Assembly: GCF_030689685.1 (NCBI RefSeq)
Contig: NZ_JAUYEY010000004.1
Span: 1-64,000, forward strand
Direction: 5' to 3'
From: Polaromonas sp.
Lineage (GTDB): Bacteria > Pseudomonadota > Gammaproteobacteria > Burkholderiales > Burkholderiaceae_C
DNA: 64,000 nt
This document shows positions 52,223-61,551 of this stretch, one piece after another; the first letter of the stretch is position 1; each line of letters starts with the position of its first letter. The position numbers and the translations under genes were made by a program. The notes below the pieces were generated by a model. That model made no database searches. It was not told the origin of the DNA and worked only from the letters and a program-made list of their open reading frames with translations.

Positions 52223-52286
52223 CCCAGGAAACCATGCCTTTTCCCCTGATCCCCTCGATTTCCCCCGGTTTACACCGGGTCAGGCC

Positions 52287-53552
52287 ATGAAAGTCGCCGT
52301 CATAGGCGCCGGCATCATCGGCATCACCTCCGCCTGGGAACTGGCCCTGGACGGCCATGAAGTCACGGTGTTCGAGCGCCGCGGCGCGGCTGCGGAAGAA
52401 GGCAGCTTCGCCAACGCCGGCGTGGTCGCGCCCGGTTACGTCACGCCCTGGGCAGCCCCTGGCATGCCGCGCAAAGTGCTCAGCCACCTGTTGAGCCGCC
52501 ACGCCCCGGTCACCCTGAGCCTGCCGCTGTCAGGCAGCGAGCTGGCCTGGATCTTGAAATGGTGGCGCGCCTGCAAACTGGAGACCTACCTGGCCAACCG
52601 CGCCCGGCTGCAGCGCCTGGCGTTTTACAGCCGGGAACGCCTGCACCAGATCACCGCCGACCGGCAGCTCGAGTACGACCGCAGCCCCGGCTACCTGGTG
52701 CTGCTGCGTACGGAAGCCGATGCCCGCATGATCGAGCCCGGCCTGCAGGTGCTGCGCGACGCCGGTGTGAGCTTCCGGCAGGTCGGCAGCGACGAGGCAC
52801 GCAAAATCGAGCCGGCGCTCAACCCGGACACGACCTTGCTGGGCGCGGTGCACCTGCCCGATGACGAGGTCGCGAATTGCCGCCAGTTCGCGCTGCTGCT
52901 GAAAACCGAAGCCCAACGCCTGGGTGTAAATTTTGAGTTCAACAAGGCGGTAGCCCATATGGACCGGGCACAACCAGCTACTTTTTTGATAGCAGGGGAA
53001 ACTCAACCACGCAGCTTCGACGCCGTCGTGCTGTGCGCCGGATTGGCGTCGGCACGGTTGCTCAGGCCGTTGGGCATAAAAATTCCACTGGCGGCGATAT
53101 ACGGCTACTCAATCAGCGCCCCGATTCGCGAGCCGCTGAATGCGCCGCGCAGCGCGCTGATGGACGAACGCTACAAGGTCGCCATCTCGCGCTTGGGCAA
53201 CCGCGTGCGCGTGGCCGGCAGCGCCGAAATCGGCGGCAACCCCGACAAAAAACGCGCGGCCTCGGTGCAGACGCTGTACAAGGTGCTGCAGGACTGGTTC
53301 CCGGGCGCGGCCCACACTTCAAACACAGGCGCCAGCGTGCAGGAATGGAAAGGCGCCCGCCCCATGCTGCCGGACGGCCCGCCCATCATCGGCGCCAGCG
53401 GCCTGCCCGGCCTGTGGCTGAACCTGGGGCACGGTTCCAGCGGCTGGGCGCTGAGCTGCGGCAGCGCGCGGGCGCTGGCGGACGTGATGGCAGGCAAGGC
53501 TGCCGACATAGACATGGAAGGCTTGGGCATTGCACGGTTAAGTGAATCTTGA
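52287..53552 (+). CDS. dadA: D-amino acid dehydrogenase
   Basis: This 421-residue flavoenzyme oxidises D-alanine and other D-amino acids to keto acids, passing electrons to the respiratory chain. It starts VAVIGAGIIGITSAWEL (FAD-binding), continues with EEGSFANAGVVAPGYVTPWA and ends LNLGHGSSGWALSCGSAR. The ATG at 52287 gives the family start; a longer frame is not supported. A hairpin repeat sits in frame near residue 235. No alanine racemase gene follows; instead a SulP gene faces it. Confidence 0.95.
   Translation: MKVAVIGAGIIGITSAWELALDGHEVTVFERRGAAAEEGSFANAGVVAPGYVTPWAAPGMPRKVLSHLLSRHAPVTLSLPLSGSELAWILKWWRACKLETYLANRARLQRLAFYSRERLHQITADRQLEYDRSPGYLVLLRTEADARMIEPGLQVLRDAGVSFRQVGSDEARKIEPALNPDTTLLGAVHLPDDEVANCRQFALLLKTEAQRLGVNFEFNKAVAHMDRAQPATFLIAGETQPRSFDAVVLCAGLASARLLRPLGIKIPLAAIYGYSISAPIREPLNAPRSALMDERYKVAISRLGNRVRVAGSAEIGGNPDKKRAASVQTLYKVLQDWFPGAAHTSNTGASVQEWKGARPMLPDGPPIIGASGLPGLWLNLGHGSSGWALSCGSARALADVMAGKAADIDMEGLGIARLSES
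52977..53000 (+). repeat. Hairpin repeat core inside dadA
   Basis: GCTACTTTTTTGATAGC (52977-52993) has the stem of the family; the tail is reduced. It lies in a variable loop before the SFDAVVLCAG strand. Confidence 0.5.
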
Positions 53553-53678
53553 GCCAAGCTTGTTGATGCCACGCCTTGTTGCATGTTTCGCGTTTCAATA
53601 TTCACCGCACCGCGTGTTCAATAAAACGGGTTGCGCACTACTAGATTGCCGCACGATTGCATTACGGTAATTGGGCAT

Positions 53679-55781
53679 TCAGGCACGCTCACGCGAAATG
53701 AGCTGATGCAAGAACCGCAACCGGTTGGCCAATTCTTTGCATAGAATTTGCAGGATTTGCTGCGCCACCTCAGGATGCTGCTGGCTGAGCGTGTCAAATC
53801 TTTCGCGACTCAAGGTGAGAGAGACCAGCGACTCAACAGCCACCACATCGGCGGCGCGGGGCGAGCCATCTAAAAACCCCATTTCACCCAAAATAGCACC
53901 TGCATTGACCCCCGCCAAGCGAATCGTTCCGCCGTGAATCAACACATCAGCGCGGCCGCTGGCTATCACGTGCAAGTCGCGTGTTTTTTCCCCCACTTTC
54001 AGCACATGGTCACCTGCGGTGTAGTCGCGCCGCTCAAAACAACCCCTGAGCAGGGTTTGTGCGGTCGAGTCAAGATCGACAAGCAACGCATTCAAGTGGA
54101 AAGCATCGCTTTCGAAGGCGTCCGTGCGCGGGCGCTGTTCGTCAAGCAGTTGGTTTTCGCAAACTTCCAAAGCGCGATCCAGATCGGAAAAACCATCTGC
54201 GTGGCCCGGTCGGGCACAGTGGAACACGCTCACGCCACGCAAGGCTACAGACTTCTCAAAGCGATCGAGCATGAGCGCCAGCGTAGTGTCATGCGAGGCC
54301 ACGGCACGCCAGTCCAGAATCAGCCACTGTGGCTGCGTGCTTTGCGGCAACAACGCTTCAATTTCTGCTCGCAGGGTTCGTGCTACACCAAAATACAGCG
54401 CCCCCTGCAGCCGCACGCTCAAAATGCGCTCGCCGTGCTGGGTCAGCAGCGCTGTGTCGCTGGAAGAGCGCGCGCAGTTCGATCGCCAGGCTCTGCCATC
54501 GTGCACGTCTTTGATGGGGCTTTTACCGTTGCGTTTGGCAAACAACACCAAGCCCAAAACCATGCCCGCCACTAAGGCAGCCACCATGTTGGCCATCGCA
54601 CCCAATAGCGTCACCAAAACGACAATCAACAAATCTTCGCGTTGCATCGCACCCATGGCCTGGCGCGCGCGGGGCTGTAAAACATAGCGCCAGACCAACT
54701 GCACGCTGGGTGGATCCACCAAGTCCCTGACTAAAAACAACAACAGTCCAATAATCGCTGCGCTAGGCACCCAGGCCAGAAAGTCCAAACCATAAAACAG
54801 CAGTGCCAGAATGGAAAACACGATCAGCGATCCGGGGGTCAGTCCACCCGTTCGCATGGTCACCAACGCTGGGGTCGAGGAGCCACTCATGGGCACCGAT
54901 CCCAGGCAGGCACTGATGACTTTTCCTGCGGACAAAAGCATCACCTGCCGGGTATCTGGCAGCGGCTTGTCATCGACCTGTGAAATCGTTTCAACCACCG
55001 TGATGGTGTTCAAAAAAATCACCACGCCCAACAAAGCGCTTGCCACCGCAGTGTGCAGCAGCAATGCACCCAGCGCGCCATGGGCGGGGTCTAAAACGCG
55101 CCAGTCCATCAAGGCAATGGGCAATACCCATTGCGTGTCCGGTGAGAGGATGGGTGGCAACGCATACCCCAGCCGCATCAAAATGATTGCCCCCAAGCTG
55201 GCCGCCGCCAAACCCAACACACCAGCGGGCAGCTTTGGATTGAGACTGCGCGCAGCATAAGCGACAGCAAAACAAATGGCCGCAATCATCAGCGAAGGCC
55301 AAGCCCCCTCAAACGAGCCGGCAAGCAAGGCAAGGATCTGCTTGCCTTGGCTGATCACCAAAATCAAGGCTGTGGCATTGAGGAACCCAGCAAACACGGG
55401 CGCCGGTATGAAGCGGGTCAGGCGTTGCAGGCGAAAGGCGTAAAAAACAGGTTGCAGTAACGCTGCGCCAATGCAAACCATCACCACCAGGCTCAGGCGG
55501 GTCACAGCGGTATCTGCCAAACCCCATGCCTCGAGTCGCGGCACAAAGCTGTCAATAAAGCCAATTAGCAGGGAAACCTCAAAAAAACGCGTGAAATAAG
55601 TCAGGGGCCGCTGTGAGAAGGCAGCGCACAGATTGGTTACTGCAATCCCACAAAACATCGCCAGCATCAAGGGGCCGATCATCTGTGGGCCAATTTTGTA
55701 GGCCACAAACCCGAGCGCACCCAGGGTGATGGGAAGGGCACTGCCGAGGGCTTCAAGCGCCGTGAAGAAGGTTTTAAACAT
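53679..55781 (-). CDS. SulP anion transporter with STAS and cyclic-nucleotide-binding domains
   Basis: This 700-residue protein has a SulP membrane core (about 1-430) with GFVAYKIGPQMIGPL, PAPVFAGFLNATALILV and GSVPMSGSSTPALV. A STAS domain follows (about 460-560). The C-terminal cyclic-nucleotide-binding domain has ILGEMGFLDGSPRAADV, including E633 and R642, the usual contacts to the nucleotide. SulP proteins move sulfate, bicarbonate or other anions. The cNMP domain suggests control by cAMP or cGMP, and a cyclase is encoded four kilobases away. The region is visibly more AT-rich than the flanking genes. Confidence 0.88.
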   Translation of the reverse strand: MFKTFFTALEALGSALPITLGALGFVAYKIGPQMIGPLMLAMFCGIAVTNLCAAFSQRPLTYFTRFFEVSLLIGFIDSFVPRLEAWGLADTAVTRLSLVVMVCIGAALLQPVFYAFRLQRLTRFIPAPVFAGFLNATALILVISQGKQILALLAGSFEGAWPSLMIAAICFAVAYAARSLNPKLPAGVLGLAAASLGAIILMRLGYALPPILSPDTQWVLPIALMDWRVLDPAHGALGALLLHTAVASALLGVVIFLNTITVVETISQVDDKPLPDTRQVMLLSAGKVISACLGSVPMSGSSTPALVTMRTGGLTPGSLIVFSILALLFYGLDFLAWVPSAAIIGLLLFLVRDLVDPPSVQLVWRYVLQPRARQAMGAMQREDLLIVVLVTLLGAMANMVAALVAGMVLGLVLFAKRNGKSPIKDVHDGRAWRSNCARSSSDTALLTQHGERILSVRLQGALYFGVARTLRAEIEALLPQSTQPQWLILDWRAVASHDTTLALMLDRFEKSVALRGVSVFHCARPGHADGFSDLDRALEVCENQLLDEQRPRTDAFESDAFHLNALLVDLDSTAQTLLRGCFERRDYTAGDHVLKVGEKTRDLHVIASGRADVLIHGGTIRLAGVNAGAILGEMGFLDGSPRAADVVAVESLVSLTLSRERFDTLSQQHPEVAQQILQILCKELANRLRFLHQLISRERA

Positions 55782-55928
55782 CAGGAAATTTCAACGACTT
55801 TTTTCATGCCGCGAGATTGCTCAACCAGTGCGCAGCGCATCTTCAATTGCGATGCACTTACAGATCCCAGAATTCAAAGTCCACACAGTGAGCCTTGGGT
55901 AAAAGCGACTGCCACTTTCTGCCACGCA

Positions 55929-57440
55929 TTAGTACTGAATGCTGGCAGAAATGGTACGTGAATACCGTTCTGAATATTTTGGATCTTCTGGATCTCCCGC
56001 TACAAGCGGCATGAAGTTGGGCATGATGGCGGCCACTTTGCCGCTGATAATTTTCAAATCTGCGTGAAACTTTAGTTGAGCCTGCAGCAACTGCGGCGAT
56101 GTGAAAGCGTAAGTGGTGTCGAAAAGGTTGGGCCAGATCGTCGCGCTTTTGAAGAACATCTCTTCCGCCATTTCGGCCCGGTACAAATCATCGGGCTCGC
56201 ACACGTCACCCACCAGCTTCACGCCAGCACCATCTGACAATTCTTTTGGCGGCGGCACCCGCAGCCGCAGGAATTTCCAGGCCGCCAGATTGGTACCGGC
56301 CGGGCCAGGTGCTTGGGGCGTAATGTCATTGGCATAGCTGTAGTGATCGGCGGCGTGCGACACCGTAACGTCCCACATATAGATCGCCAGCGCTTTGGCC
56401 AGCACACCGGGTACGAAAATTTCTTTCCCGTCCGGAAAGCCGTAGAGATTGGCGCTGATGTAGTTGGCCCATCGTTCCACGTAGGTGTCATTTGGACTTG
56501 CCTTGAGAATCTCTGAGGCCACTGTGGTGCAGAAGCTCAAAAACGGTTCAAAGTAAAGACTTAGACAACGACCGTAGTCAATGCTGGTATCCATCCAGGG
56601 GGTCATGTAGTTGTATTTCGGATACAAGTCCGGGCGCTCTGGAAGACCCGCGTAGCCCGCGCCAAACATGCGCTTGATCACCAAGCCCGTGGCCGTGAGT
56701 GGGTCAAACCAGGTTCCCGGTGGGTTGCTACTGAGCACACCATCTTCAGTTTCAAGAACTGCGTTATTCACGGCCAGCGCATAACTGCTGTGAGCAGACA
56801 GCAGTTGAAACAGTGGGTGAGTGTGCGGCACTGCGGTCTTGGTGATCGCGTTGACCGTATCCATCGGGAAATGCAAGGCCGGGTGTACCACAAACAAGCC
56901 GATGTAGGACGCCCCTTGCAGGGCGTAAGCCTTGGCCAAATTCCAGGCTGGATCGCCAGGACGCACTTCCAGCTGCTGCTGCGCAATGACTGGCACATTG
57001 ATGCTCACGCAAGAAAACTGATCACCGTTGCGCGAGAAGACGCAGTTCACCGGCCAGGAGTAGGTGCCCTGCAATGTCGCGTCGGCGATCAAGTCCATGG
57101 CATAGAAACGTGACACCCAAATATTGCCCTCAACATTTTTCAGACACCGCGCATGCACCGAATTTGTCATCATCCGGACGAACTCGGCATCCGACGGTAT
57201 CGGCAGCTGGCTGCCAGCGACCGCATTGGCCGCCGCCCCACCGGGGTAAAAAGTCAAGGTCTTGAAGTAGCGTGAGCCAATAGCCTGATTCCAGAGCAGC
57301 GTCTCAACCGGCGGGATATTCAGAATTTCGGGCGCGTGCTCCATCGGGTACGAGGGACTGGGCTGGGGCCAAGGCCCCTTGCGCTGGTAGAGAAATTGAT
57401 CGGCTGCCAGGTCGGGCTGGCTCCATTGGGGCTTCTTCAT
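55929..57440 (-). CDS. Divergent lipoxygenase-like protein
   Basis: From the ATG at 57440 (GAGGAAG eight bases upstream) the product has 503 residues. THPLFQLLSAH (207-217) fits the second lipoxygenase signature pattern. H190 lies 18 residues before the signature histidine, the spacing of the second iron-ligand histidine in known enzymes; H186 lies near the first ligand position but off by one. H362 and H366 in SHAADHY match the spacing of the third and fourth ligands, where the fourth is Asn or His in known members. The usual C-terminal isoleucine ligand is replaced by tyrosine. It is likely an iron protein acting on polyunsaturated lipid or a related substrate. There is no signal peptide. 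Confidence 0.65.
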   Translation of the reverse strand: MKKPQWSQPDLAADQFLYQRKGPWPQPSPSYPMEHAPEILNIPPVETLLWNQAIGSRYFKTLTFYPGGAAANAVAGSQLPIPSDAEFVRMMTNSVHARCLKNVEGNIWVSRFYAMDLIADATLQGTYSWPVNCVFSRNGDQFSCVSINVPVIAQQQLEVRPGDPAWNLAKAYALQGASYIGLFVVHPALHFPMDTVNAITKTAVPHTHPLFQLLSAHSSYALAVNNAVLETEDGVLSSNPPGTWFDPLTATGLVIKRMFGAGYAGLPERPDLYPKYNYMTPWMDTSIDYGRCLSLYFEPFLSFCTTVASEILKASPNDTYVERWANYISANLYGFPDGKEIFVPGVLAKALAIYMWDVTVSHAADHYSYANDITPQAPGPAGTNLAAWKFLRLRVPPPKELSDGAGVKLVGDVCEPDDLYRAEMAEEMFFKSATIWPNLFDTTYAFTSPQLLQAQLKFHADLKIISGKVAAIMPNFMPLVAGDPEDPKYSERYSRTISASIQY

Positions 57441-57702
57441 GACGCAGTCTTCCTCTCTATTCTTGCTTTTTGAATCGGTTGGCATCTCGTGCCAGATATT
57501 TTCATTTCCGCTTCAGCCTGCGGCTCACACCGTGCAGCCGAGCACGAAGAAGTGTTCACGCAAATCCGACCATCACCATGAGCGAATACCCTGAGTAGCC
57601 ATTCGGTGTGATTTTGGGTGCACCAGCCTGCTGTCAGAAATTGCGTTTTCTGTTTCATGCCTTTGCCATTAAAGTAGGCACACCGAGCGCCCCTCAAAGC
57701 CC

Positions 57703-59589
57703 ATGACTCACTACGCCCGCCTTCTCTGGATCGTCCTGTTTGCCATACCCTGTTATGCGCTGCCTGCCGCAGCACAGGATTCAAGGCTCGCATTGTCGTC
57801 AAACACAACTGAAGTGGCCTTGACGCCGTGGGTGCGCATCGTCAAGGACGCCGACAAAAACAAAACCGTCGAGCAAATTCTCAATTCGCCCCTGGCGATG
57901 CCGCCAGGAGATGCCGGTGGCGCGATTAATTTTGGCTACACAGATGCGGCTTATTGGTTTGTGATTCCGCTGGACAATACCGAAAAAAATCCACTGGAGC
58001 GCCTGCTGATGTTCGAGCCCACCTGGCTCGACGAGGTCAACGTCACGCTAGTTGATGCCAGCGGGCAACTACAGACCCAGGTCGGCGGCGACACCCTGCC
58101 TTTTGCGCAGCGCGCAGAGCTGCGCCGACAGATCAATTTCAATTTGGTGTTGCCGCCCGGCCAGAGCACGCTCGTCGTACGCGTCGCCAGCCGCGATACA
58201 TTGTTTTTGGTCATGTCCTTGCTGGACCGCAGCGCGTTGAATCAATTGGCGTCTGGGGAAGCGGCCTTTTTTGGTTTTTTCTATGGCGCATTGATTGCGC
58301 TGATTGCGTTCAACTTTGTGCTGTACCTCTCGGTGCGCCAGCCGATGTACCTGGCTTACTGCGCCTATGTTGGGGCATTTCTGTTAATCCACTCGGTGTA
58401 CAACGGGCACGCCTTCGGTCTGATTTTTCGCCAGTGGCCCGAGCTGTCCAACTGGGCGCATTCCCTGTTTGCTTACCTCTTTGCACTGTCCGGGCTGGTT
58501 TTTGCCAGTGTGTTCCTTGACCTGAAGCACAAGCTTCCACGCATATACGGGGTTTGGCAGAAATTTTTGCTCGTATTTGTTGTGTACTTTTTTGCGACGT
58601 TTCCCTTTGGTTACGGCGTCCATGCGCGTGGAGCGGTCACTTGGATCGCCATCTGTTCTGTCTTCGTCCTGGGTCTTGGCATTATTTCCATGAAGCAAGG
58701 CAACAGCGTTGCCAAGTACTACCTGGCAGCCACCGCAGCCGGCCTGATTGGTACCGCCATTACGTCATTGACGGTACTTGGAATTCTGCCTTACACCTTC
58801 GCAACCTTCAGGGCCGTTGACTTTGGCATGTTGGTGGATGCCATCCTGCTGTCACTGGCGCTTGCTGAACGAATTTCACGGGTCAATAGTCTCGAGCGTT
58901 TGCGGCGTTTCTTTTCCCCCGCCGTGGCCAATCAGTTGCTCTCGGCACGCAACGAGGATTTGTACCGCCCGCATCAGCGCGAGATCGTGGTGGTTTTTCT
59001 GGACTTACGCGGCTACACCAGTTTTACCCTGAAGCACGGGCCTGAAGAAGTCATGCGTATGCTGGCCGAGTTCCATGCAGTCATGGGGGAATTGATCGCG
59101 TCGCATGGTGCTACCCTGGAGCGATTTGCGGGCGACGGGATGATGCTATTTTTCAACGACCCGGTTGAGATCCCGGATCCCGCCGTTAAGGCTTGCCGAA
59201 TGACCATGGAAATGCAATCGCGTTTTGAAGATTTGCAAAAAACATGGGCGGCGCGCAGTTACAGCCTGTCATTGGGCGTTGGCATTGCCCAAGGCGTGGC
59301 CACTATTGGCGCCATCGGCTTTGAGGGGCGGCGCGACTATGCCGCCATTGGCAATGTGACCAATCTTGCCGCGCGACTTTGCTCACAGGCGCAGGGCGGA
59401 CAAACCATCGTATGCAGCGTGGTCGCGAAAAACGTCAGCACAACGCTTTCGGTACAGCCCATGACCTCGCTGAGTTTGAAGGGTTTTGACGAGCCGGTTG
59501 AGTGCTTCGAGCTGGGCACACCGCTTGGGACAACGCTTTTGGCGCCAGCAATACCCAGGCGGCCCCAGGAGATTACTGCTGTGGCTTAA
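57703..59589 (+). CDS. 7TM receptor-type class III nucleotide cyclase
   Basis: This 628-residue protein has a signal peptide (1-24) and a periplasmic sensor domain (about 35-180) like 7TMR-DISM extracellular domains. Seven membrane helices (about 190-390) and a class III cyclase domain (about 425-610) follow. Metal-binding D434 (VFLDLRGYTSF) and D478 (FAGDGMMLFF) are present, and DYAAIGNVTNLAARL (545-559) supplies D545, N554 and R558. The aspartate favours adenylate over guanylate cyclase, though the lysine that usually reads adenine is Arg474. It diverges from the lipoxygenase-like gene across 262 bases and may supply the nucleotide sensed by the SulP protein. Confidence 0.85.
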   Translation: MTHYARLLWIVLFAIPCYALPAAAQDSRLALSSNTTEVALTPWVRIVKDADKNKTVEQILNSPLAMPPGDAGGAINFGYTDAAYWFVIPLDNTEKNPLERLLMFEPTWLDEVNVTLVDASGQLQTQVGGDTLPFAQRAELRRQINFNLVLPPGQSTLVVRVASRDTLFLVMSLLDRSALNQLASGEAAFFGFFYGALIALIAFNFVLYLSVRQPMYLAYCAYVGAFLLIHSVYNGHAFGLIFRQWPELSNWAHSLFAYLFALSGLVFASVFLDLKHKLPRIYGVWQKFLLVFVVYFFATFPFGYGVHARGAVTWIAICSVFVLGLGIISMKQGNSVAKYYLAATAAGLIGTAITSLTVLGILPYTFATFRAVDFGMLVDAILLSLALAERISRVNSLERLRRFFSPAVANQLLSARNEDLYRPHQREIVVVFLDLRGYTSFTLKHGPEEVMRMLAEFHAVMGELIASHGATLERFAGDGMMLFFNDPVEIPDPAVKACRMTMEMQSRFEDLQKTWAARSYSLSLGVGIAQGVATIGAIGFEGRRDYAAIGNVTNLAARLCSQAQGGQTIVCSVVAKNVSTTLSVQPMTSLSLKGFDEPVECFELGTPLGTTLLAPAIPRRPQEITAVA

Positions 59590-59838
59590 GCATGCCCGCA
59601 GTTTTATCGGTTGCCGCATAGATATCCTGGGTACGCCGAAGCAAACAGCCCCAGGCCAACGCACCCCCGTAAAATCGATTTCGTTCACGTGTTGCGTATT
59701 CCTGCAGGTGCTTCAAACAGCATGACGGGCTGATGCAAAAAATCACGACAGCACACAGCCAACCACTTTTTGATGTGGCGACTACGCAGTCGAGGTGTCG
59801 GTTGATAACCTCGGCGTTGACCTGACGGCCATGGAGCC

Positions 59839-59928
59839 GGCAGCGCGCGCGCCGTCGCCGACCTGATCGCGGCCAGAACGCCCGAGATCGACATGGAAGG
59901 GCTGGGGCTGAGCCGACTCAAGGCCTGA
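59839..59928 (+). pseudogene. Displaced dadA C-terminal tail
   Basis: Thirty codons read GSARAVADLIAARTPEIDMEG, then LGLSRLKA and a stop. They match the end of the intact dadA at 53465-53552 (GSARALADVMAG, then DIDMEGLGIARL), with about the same layout but clearly diverged DNA. No start or body of the gene precedes it. The preceding bases (59590-59838) contain no gene. It lies 45 bases before nnr, so dadA and nnr were probably once neighbours. Confidence 0.8.
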
Positions 59929-59973: not shown

Positions 59974-61551
59974 ATGCAACTCGTCTCCAGCGCCCTCAGC
60001 CTGCCGCTTTACAGCATTGCCGCCACGCGGCATTTTGAGCAGGCCGCAGCAGCCACCCTGCCCGCCCACGCCCTGATGCAGCGCGCCGGGCTGGCTGCAG
60101 CCCGCCTGAACCTGGCGCTGGCGCCCCATGCGCAGCACATCTGGGTCGCCTGCGGCCCAGGCAACAACGGCGGCGACGGCCTTGAAGCCGCGATGCATCT
60201 GCACCAGTGGGGCAAAAAAGTGACCGTGACCTGGCTGGGCACACAACAGGCAACACAGGGGCCGGCTGACGCGCTGGCTTCTCACGCCAGGGCGCGGGCT
60301 GCGGGGGTATTGTTTTCACAGACACCGCCCGCCGATTTCGACTTCGCCCTGGACGCCCTGCTGGGCATAGGGGCTGCGCCACGCAGCGCGGGCGCAAGCC
60401 CCCGCGTCGATCCGCTTTCACACTGGTTGGCACTGCTGCGCGGCAGCCCGCAACCCGTGCTGGCGCTGGATATTCCGAGCTTGCTCGATGCGGATACAGG
60501 CACCGACCTTGTGCTCGAATCCGCTATTGAATCAATAGCTGCTCACGCGCACCCGCAAAGGGCTGGAGCCCGATTTACCTTGACATTTTTGACCCTGAAG
60601 CCGGGTTTGTTCACGGGCGCCGGGCGTGACCTGGCCGGGCAGGTGTGGTGGGACGATTTGGGTGTCATCGGCCCCCTCGACATGTCGCCAAACGCCTGGT
60701 TGGCGGGCCAGGACCGCGCCGACACCACTGGCCGCGACCAGGCCAGCCACAGCAGCCACAAAGGCAGTTTCGGCGATGTAGCCATCGTCGGCGGCGGGTC
60801 GGCGGGCATAACCCACATGGCCGGCGCCGCTTTGCTGGCCGGGCGTGCCGCCCTGCATGCCGGCGCCGGCCGGGTGTTTGTCGCCCTGCTCGGCAGCCCA
60901 AGCCTGACGGTGGACCCGCAGCAGCCAGAGCTGATGTTTCGCAGCCCGGACGCCTTGGACCTGACCCATCAAGTCGTGGTTTGCGGTTGTGGCGGTGGCG
61001 ATGCCGTCGCCGCTGTGCTGCCAAAAATCCTGTCGCAGGCAAAGTCCCTGGTGCTGGACGCCGATGGGCTCAACGCCGTCGCACGCGACACGCAGTTGCA
61101 GACCCAGATGCGCGCCCGCGCCGCTCGGGGCTGGCACACCATCCTGAGTCCGCACCCGCTCGAAGCCGCGCGCCTGCTAGGCAGCACTACGGCCGCCGTG
61201 CAAGCAGATCGCCTGACAGCGGCAAGCCGGCTGGCCGCACAGTTTCAGTGTGTGGTGGTGCTCAAGGGCTCGGGCACTGTGATCGCCGCGCCCGGCGCCA
61301 TCCCGATGATCAACCCCACCGGCAATGCGCGCCTGGCCACGGCCGGAACCGGCGATGTGCTGGCGGGCATGCTGGGCGCCATGCTGGCTGCCGGGCTACC
61401 GGCCCTTGAAGCCGCCAGCAACGCCGTATTCCGGCACGGCCAGCTTGCGGACGACTGGGCGGCGCAGCATCCCGGCCAGGCGCTGACCGCCTCGCGGCTA
61501 GCCAAGAACCATCAGGCCGATTTGCAGCAGCAACAGCAGCACCAGCGCTGA
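59974..61551 (+). CDS. nnr: Bifunctional NAD(P)H-hydrate epimerase/dehydratase
   Basis: This 525-residue enzyme repairs hydrated NAD(P)H. The N-terminal epimerase half (about 1-230) has WVACGPGNNGGDGLEAA. The C-terminal ADP-dependent dehydratase half (about 240-525) has GSFGDVAIVGGGSAG, VLDADGLNAVA and ATAGTGDVLAGMLGAM. A hairpin repeat contributes about 20 extra residues near 184-204, before FTLTFLTLKPG. The last 54 bases overlap the end of the convergent YggT gene, giving a glutamine-rich tail. Confidence 0.95.
   Translation: MQLVSSALSLPLYSIAATRHFEQAAAATLPAHALMQRAGLAAARLNLALAPHAQHIWVACGPGNNGGDGLEAAMHLHQWGKKVTVTWLGTQQATQGPADALASHARARAAGVLFSQTPPADFDFALDALLGIGAAPRSAGASPRVDPLSHWLALLRGSPQPVLALDIPSLLDADTGTDLVLESAIESIAAHAHPQRAGARFTLTFLTLKPGLFTGAGRDLAGQVWWDDLGVIGPLDMSPNAWLAGQDRADTTGRDQASHSSHKGSFGDVAIVGGGSAGITHMAGAALLAGRAALHAGAGRVFVALLGSPSLTVDPQQPELMFRSPDALDLTHQVVVCGCGGGDAVAAVLPKILSQAKSLVLDADGLNAVARDTQLQTQMRARAARGWHTILSPHPLEAARLLGSTTAAVQADRLTAASRLAAQFQCVVVLKGSGTVIAAPGAIPMINPTGNARLATAGTGDVLAGMLGAMLAAGLPALEAASNAVFRHGQLADDWAAQHPGQALTASRLAKNHQADLQQQQQHQR
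60522..60585 (+). repeat. Hairpin repeat in frame inside nnr
   Basis: A perfect core GCTATTGAATCAATAGC (60523-60539) is followed by TGCTCACGC, then AAGGGCTGGAGCC and a T-rich end. It encodes an extra loop (ESAIESIAAHAHPQRAGARF) in the epimerase half. Confidence 0.8.

Follow-up and report, generated by a model that had tools for sequence, protein, structure and literature searches.

The genes dadA and nnr of this Polaromonas sp. are separated by three genes, encoding a SulP-type anion transporter, a lipoxygenase (LOX)-like enzyme and a 7TM receptor cyclase, and the question raised by this locus is whether these genes were acquired together and whether they work together. The three genes had been described at this place by a sequence-only reading of the window (the whole stretch of 64,000 nucleotides that was analysed), and all of them are present and intact.

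Insertion of the Islet between dadA and nnr

The islet, with approximate limits 53525..59838, is unmatched by blastn at the dadA–nnr junction of relatives. It is preceded by dadA, which encodes D-amino acid dehydrogenase (52284..53552, + strand; PF01266/NF001933), and followed by nnr, which encodes NAD(P)HX epimerase/dehydratase (59974..61551, + strand; PF03853, PF01256). Of 21 genomes from the genus, including the present one, 18 carry nnr, and neighbourhoods were compared in 13 of the 17 other same-genus genomes with this gene; SulP, LOX and cyclase matches are absent from all 13, and dadA lies on the same stretch as nnr in seven. In L011, the dadA match stops 28 bases 5' of the nnr start, and a longer gap of some 250 to 800 bases separates dadA from nnr in L016, L018 and L020. 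Alignments of the window to L011, L012, L014 and L015 by blastn end at 53521-53530 and restart at 59838; from there they continue into nnr in L012, L014 and L015, while in L011 the restart is a separate 60-base piece, followed by alignment from 59960.

A stray dadA tail had been noticed in front of nnr, and a 3' end of dadA is indeed stranded there (59839..59928, + strand, 30 codons including the stop; blastn to L012, L014, L015). Since it is continuous with nnr as in these three relatives, it has the appearance of the native end of dadA. By comparison with L011, identity of the intact dadA is 0.79-0.93 in ten 120-column blocks and falls from 0.91 to 0.59 in the last one, and the last ~100 bases of this gene therefore seem to have been exchanged and to have arrived with the islet. 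Most simply, incoming DNA that brought its own dadA end would have recombined at the end of the resident dadA. A fresh target-site duplication was rejected because identity between the two tails of dadA reaches only 74%, and none of the three islet genes encodes an integrase or transposase.

Composition was the check proposed for transfer, and it bears out the idea in part. Between 54 and 60 kb, the six 1-kb blocks have a GC of 0.543-0.580 and include the four lowest of the window, with blocks elsewhere reaching down to 0.559; GC3 of the islet genes is 0.65-0.66 versus 0.76 (SD 0.055) for the 49 other called frames. Codon usage, however, does not set the islet apart, its divergence being unremarkable, and the islet was rejected as a codon-usage outlier. 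With the three genes missing from all 13 same-genus neighbourhoods compared, the junction mapped in four of them and GC3 shifted, an insertion by horizontal transfer, as had been proposed, is supported.

A Divergent and Rare Lipoxygenase

The central gene of the islet encodes a divergent LOX of 503 aa (55929..57440, − strand; an alternative upstream start is possible at 57485). It scores 14.7 bits against PF00305, under the gathering score of 23.6, as does its most distant relative L029 (17.9 bits), and no NCBIfam family matches it. The LOX catalytic-domain fold was nevertheless matched over residues 28-500 of the predicted model, which is of moderate quality (pLDDT 72; residues 1-56 and 219-253 below 50), at 12-18% identity to the solved LOXs compared. 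There is no strongly hydrophobic stretch in the protein, which is probably cytosolic.

Candidate metal ligands are H186-x3-H190 (HPALH; 56871..56885, − strand), at the start of an H-x17-H-x8-H signature, and H362-x3-H366 (HAADH; 56343..56357, − strand). The first pair is kept in the seven other near-full-length members, and the second is invariant across the eight rows of alignment A3 (window, L002, L003, L009, L028, L029, L004, which is cut at its start, and the C-terminal scrap L005; L031 is not included). In L031, the frame stops right after the first His of the second pair. In known LOXs, the carboxylate of the C-terminal Ile binds iron, and Tyr503 (55932..55934, − strand) is in register with this residue: model residue 500 is aligned with h12-LOX 660, 5-LOX 670, PA-LOX 682 and soybean 836, positions which we take to be three residues short of their C-termini.

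These features bear on whether the protein is an enzyme at all, as it might instead bind lipid without catalysis and serve the cyclase as a subunit or scaffold. Such a role would fit the final residue, which is Tyr or Phe rather than Ile in all eight A3 rows and in the 3' frame of L031, and also the absence of the His that we take to open the classical LOX signature, present in the control LOX L030. Against it, members down to 30% identity keep all four candidate His and the C-terminal register (A3). MF-LOX1 of Myxococcus fulvus, for which His-x3-His metal ligands are also reported, can be read both ways, in that it has an iron load of 5.6% and low activity, yet, slow as it is, still oxygenates fatty acids (PMC6612559). 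A pseudo-enzyme is considered improbable. As for the H-x3-H pair, it was rejected as a mark of the window LOX family alone, because it occurs in MF-LOX1, by the reported ligands, and in the further bacterial LOX-like proteins L042-L045, among which the frames of L043-L045 end in SPWN, not in Ile.

Relatives of the window LOX were found at 10 places, eight with near-full-length members (window, L002, L003, L004, L009, L028, L029, L031) and two with scraps (L005, L010), repeats having been merged: L001 with the window, L006 with L009, L007, L027 and L032 with L010, L008 with L002, L024 with L028, L025 with L029, L026 with L030, L041 as part of L031, and L033-L040 with L042-L045. With the own genome included, the family was matched in 2 of the 399 genomes sampled from the order, 3 of the 399 from the taxonomic family and 3 of the 239 from the class; without it, 1 of 201 genomes from the G888 family matched. 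A profile search of the phylum matched 5 of 398 genomes (own included), one of which, G1154, represents a canonical LOX; all of these samples overlap, together with the 274 class genomes of the control described below. A scan of genome contigs reduced 18 pattern matches to four loci, plasmids gave no match, and 24 pattern matches in viral contigs included no relative. The five other same-genus genomes in the family sample lack the window LOX. The family is rare and patchy in distribution, and lipoxygenases as a whole are reported from under 0.5% of sequenced bacterial species (PMC6612559).

The Receptor Cyclase and the SulP Transporter

Divergent from the LOX and SulP genes lies a gene encoding a 7TMR-DISM receptor class III nucleotide cyclase of 628 aa (57703..59589, + strand), with DISMED2 (PF07696, 1.1e-23), seven-helix (PF07695, 1.4e-38) and class III catalytic domains (PF00211, 1.3e-17; 64.5 bits, over 21.9). 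In the catalytic domain (58969..59508, + strand), the metal Asps, Asn and Arg are kept, which presumably represent metal-binding and transition-state residues. The nearest solved catalytic domains are named adenylate cyclase, CyaB among them. Adenylate cyclases, the product of which is cAMP, contact the base with Lys and Thr/Asp; at the two positions occupied by Lys and Thr in CyaB, the window cyclase has Arg and Ala. Other residues are also present there in the top-scoring solved chain, 2w01, which likewise bears the name adenylate cyclase. Upstream of the gene, TTAAAGTA (57669-57676) is common to the window, L002 and L003 in an otherwise diverged intergenic region, and could possibly be a promoter or operator. 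CRP-like palindromes number 15 in the window versus 20.5 expected, with none between the LOX and cyclase genes.

The SulP-type anion transporter (700 aa; 53679..55781, − strand) contains Sulfate_transp (PF00916, 5.5e-13), STAS (PF01740, 4.8e-06) and cNMP_binding (PF00027, 5.6e-14) domains, all over cut-off and in that order. Its cNMP-binding domain (53775..54029, − strand) contains GEMGFLDGSPRAAD, which we take to resemble the phosphate-binding cassette of cAMP-type sites. The protein is 84% identical to the L002 copy and 78% to the L003 copy, these being, with the window, the three of the eight near-full-length loci in which SulP-cNMP adjoins LOX. In L028, the LOX neighbour is a different protein of 232 residues with a cNMP domain, so that cNMP-binding proteins adjoin LOX in four of the eight loci. 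They also adjoin both LOX scraps, L005 and L010, and the cNMP proteins of L028 and L010 have hydrophobic N-terminal halves and appear by eye to be membrane proteins. Near L009, neither a cNMP domain nor a SulP was found. The absence of a cNMP gene at L004 and L031 is uninformative, as L004 begins inside LOX and L031 is a 3.4-kb contig. As an observation apart, the LOX scrap of L010 (1527-4924, genome G049) lies beside two cNMP-domain proteins, one of them a SulP 26% identical to that of the window, and an intact LOX–cyclase pair lies ~139 kb away on the same contig.

Of 50 genomes of the taxonomic family (own among them), four carry a SulP relative without LOX, with identities of 53, 41, 41 and 34% along almost the full length. 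In L046 (1596-8773), the gene for the 53% relative diverges from those for a flavoprotein of the amine-oxidase fold and for a class III cyclase with AAA and TPR, and the stretches of the other three contain no cyclase. In this one example of four, another oxidising enzyme may take the slot of LOX, hinting at a general plan of oxidising enzyme, cyclase and cNMP-gated transporter.

A cyclase beside a cNMP-binding membrane protein also recalls Pycsar anti-phage defence, in which case the cyclase product would trigger a membrane cNMP effector and LOX would be a membrane-damaging accessory. The patchy distribution and mobility of the genes are consistent with defence, as are the two base-contact positions that differ from CyaB and the matches of the PADLOC PycC and PycTIR models to the cyclase and cNMP domains. 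These matches, however, span only the catalytic or cNMP domain and not the whole proteins, no PADLOC model matches LOX, and no PycC known to us resembles a receptor cyclase that has a 7TM domain. We regard such a defence role as very unlikely. As a separate observation, at L009 (954-2680) two adjacent genes, which we take to resemble an AAA/RloB-like defence pair, lie ~4 kb from the LOX–cyclase pair.

Conserved Pairing of Lipoxygenase and Cyclase

Conserved clustering in other genomes had been suggested as the check on a module, and LOX–cyclase clusters are indeed conserved in other lineages. A class III cyclase adjoins LOX in seven of the eight near-full-length loci (window, L002, L003, L004, L009, L028, L031). 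Three cyclase architectures are found there, namely 7TMR-DISM (five loci; called by Pfam for the window and L009 and by alignment for the other three), kinase-AAA-GAF-cyclase (L028) and cyclase-AAA (L031); the cyclase of the LOX-free L046, with AAA and TPR, represents a fourth. Gene order varies as well. The window, L002 and L003 have the 7TM cyclase in divergent orientation to LOX and SulP. The cyclase comes first in L009, where its frame either overlaps that of LOX or ends 2 bases before it, depending on the start, and LOX comes first in L004, with the cyclase 8 bases further on if the cyclase ATG at 1258 is used. L028 has on one strand the cNMP protein, a LOX 43% identical to that of the window and the kinase-AAA-GAF-cyclase, and in L031 a LOX with a broken frame is followed by the cyclase-AAA gene on the same strand. 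Because of this broken frame and of one in-frame stop in the L004 cyclase, some copies may be dead.

The three-family module that had been proposed for the islet was thus upheld in its core, LOX plus class III cyclase; SulP adjoins only three of the eight loci. A strict three-gene module was rejected, as L009 is without SulP and L028 has another cNMP protein. The exception to the pairing is L029, the most distant LOX (30% identity), which has no cyclase nearby and whose genome contains zero PF00211 matches. In this locus (L029, 2-4422), LOX follows an RHS-repeat gene, whose end is ADP-ribosyltransferase-like, and a 143-aa gene. Neither of the scraps L005 and L010 adjoins a cyclase.

Canonical LOXs were used as a control. 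LOXs over the Pfam cut-off occur in 4 of 274 class genomes (G1384, G1397, G1467, G1579), and G1154 was added; the stretches surrounding these five control LOXs in five genomes, 3.4 to 18 kb long, contain no cyclase. Elsewhere, G1384 has four cyclases, G1467 five (the nearest 14.7 kb from its control LOX), G1579 three, G1397 eight and G1154 none. One of the eight in G1397 lies beside the window-family LOX of this genome, on another contig than the control LOX. The control is small, with G1467 and G1579 from one genus and G1397, whose control stretch is 3.4 kb, also having a family member.

Chance travel of unrelated cargo genes, which share no function, was weighed against this evidence. The islet is mobile, loci are few, five of the seven pairings are of one related type, and one member and two scraps are without a cyclase, all of which would be expected of cargo. 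It is countered by the three distinct cyclase architectures, by genes that overlap or nearly abut in two orders and by the lack of pairing around the five control LOXs. Moreover, PF00211 matches number six in G000, three in G049, five in G595, eight in G1397, none in G1123 and one in G888, so the LOX-linked cyclase of L028 is the sole cyclase of its genome. A naive uniform-placement estimate gives p 0.0008-0.006 per genome for LOX–cyclase adjacency, of which a product across genomes would overstate independence; as the five 7TM loci share ancestry, the independent pairings number ~3. Chance cargo is judged highly improbable, the related clusters of other bacteria point to a functional pairing, and LOX and cyclase very probably act in one pathway.

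Proposed Mechanism

Our tentative reading, plausible though still short of probable, is a mobile signalling module with LOX upstream of the cyclase, whose nucleotide acts on a membrane protein. The core, divergent LOX plus class III cyclase, would move horizontally, and a cNMP-binding membrane protein, here SulP-STAS-cNMP, would often be added as receptor. A polyunsaturated fatty acid, whose source might be eukaryotic prey, a host or debris, would be bound or oxidised by LOX, and the product or liganded state of LOX would set the activity of the neighbouring cyclase, jointly with the cyclase's own sensor, here the DISMED2/7TM receptor. Binding of the nucleotide to the cNMP domain would then alter transport by the membrane protein. 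We infer each catalytic and signalling step, and their order, from what is observed, namely the genes, the predicted fold, the candidate active-site residues, the insertion and the conserved pairing. We know of no such bacteria that make polyunsaturated fatty acids, which counts against the mechanism, and no common oxylipin-binding domain is visible in the cyclases, whose sensor domains differ between loci.

The opposite order had been proposed for the islet, in which an outside signal sets the nucleotide level, the nucleotide gates anion transport and lipid oxidation is a linked output. In the form weighed here, the receptor cyclase would sense the outside, its nucleotide would switch the membrane protein, and LOX would lie downstream, its oxylipin product being exported or modifying membranes. 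The obvious sensor domains do sit in the cyclases, the cNMP proteins are the obvious receivers, and SulP could conceivably export an anion such as an oxylipin. However, no cNMP domain was detected in LOX, and LOX stays constant while sensor and receiver types change between loci, which fits LOX standing nearer to the cyclase than to either end. The opposite order is regarded as rather unlikely.

LOX upstream of the cyclase is the order we retain. Roles of bacterial LOXs are little known, and a LOX that travels with a cyclase suggests that lipid oxidation is coupled to a second messenger. On balance somewhat doubtful, but possible, is a new signalling class, in which an intracellular LOX would be wired to a cNMP circuit, a class III cyclase either being governed by fatty-acid oxygenation or governing it, with interchangeable cNMP-gated membrane proteins as targets of the nucleotide. 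If true, bacterial oxylipin signalling would also operate through a circuit inside the cell, and SulP-cNMP transporters would gain an input. Animal enzymes that produce eicosanoids are relatives from which the window LOX has diverged, and the module would then be a bacterial parallel to eicosanoid-receptor-cAMP signalling.

Comparison with Known Systems

Each part of the islet belongs to a known family, and the pairing sits among cyclic-nucleotide signalling modules; no report of a LOX–cyclase pairing was found in the open-licence literature at the level of listings and the first lines of abstracts. The window LOX shares the fold and the register of the C-terminal carboxylate position with the LOX of P. 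aeruginosa, Cyanothece CspLOX2 and MF-LOX1, and, with the last, the reported x3 spacing in its two candidate His clusters. Unlike these LOXs, it lies under the Pfam cut-off, ends in Tyr/Phe and is tied to a cyclase. The catalytic domain is like those of CyaB-type class III cyclases except for Arg/Ala in place of the CyaB Lys/Thr, and the SulP has the domain order of other SulP-STAS-cNMP transporters but is linked to LOX and cyclase. To our knowledge, Pycsar has no 7TM receptor cyclase. It does resemble the islet in having a cyclase with an adjoining cNMP-binding receptor, and base-recognition residues of PycC enzymes have been reported (PMC11224242); the window, in contrast, has a LOX and different receptor proteins. 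In P. aeruginosa, oxylipins derived from oleic acid mediate cell-to-cell communication, so oxidised fatty acids likewise serve as bacterial signals there, and the available part of that report mentions no lipoxygenase–cyclase pairing (PMC6377657).
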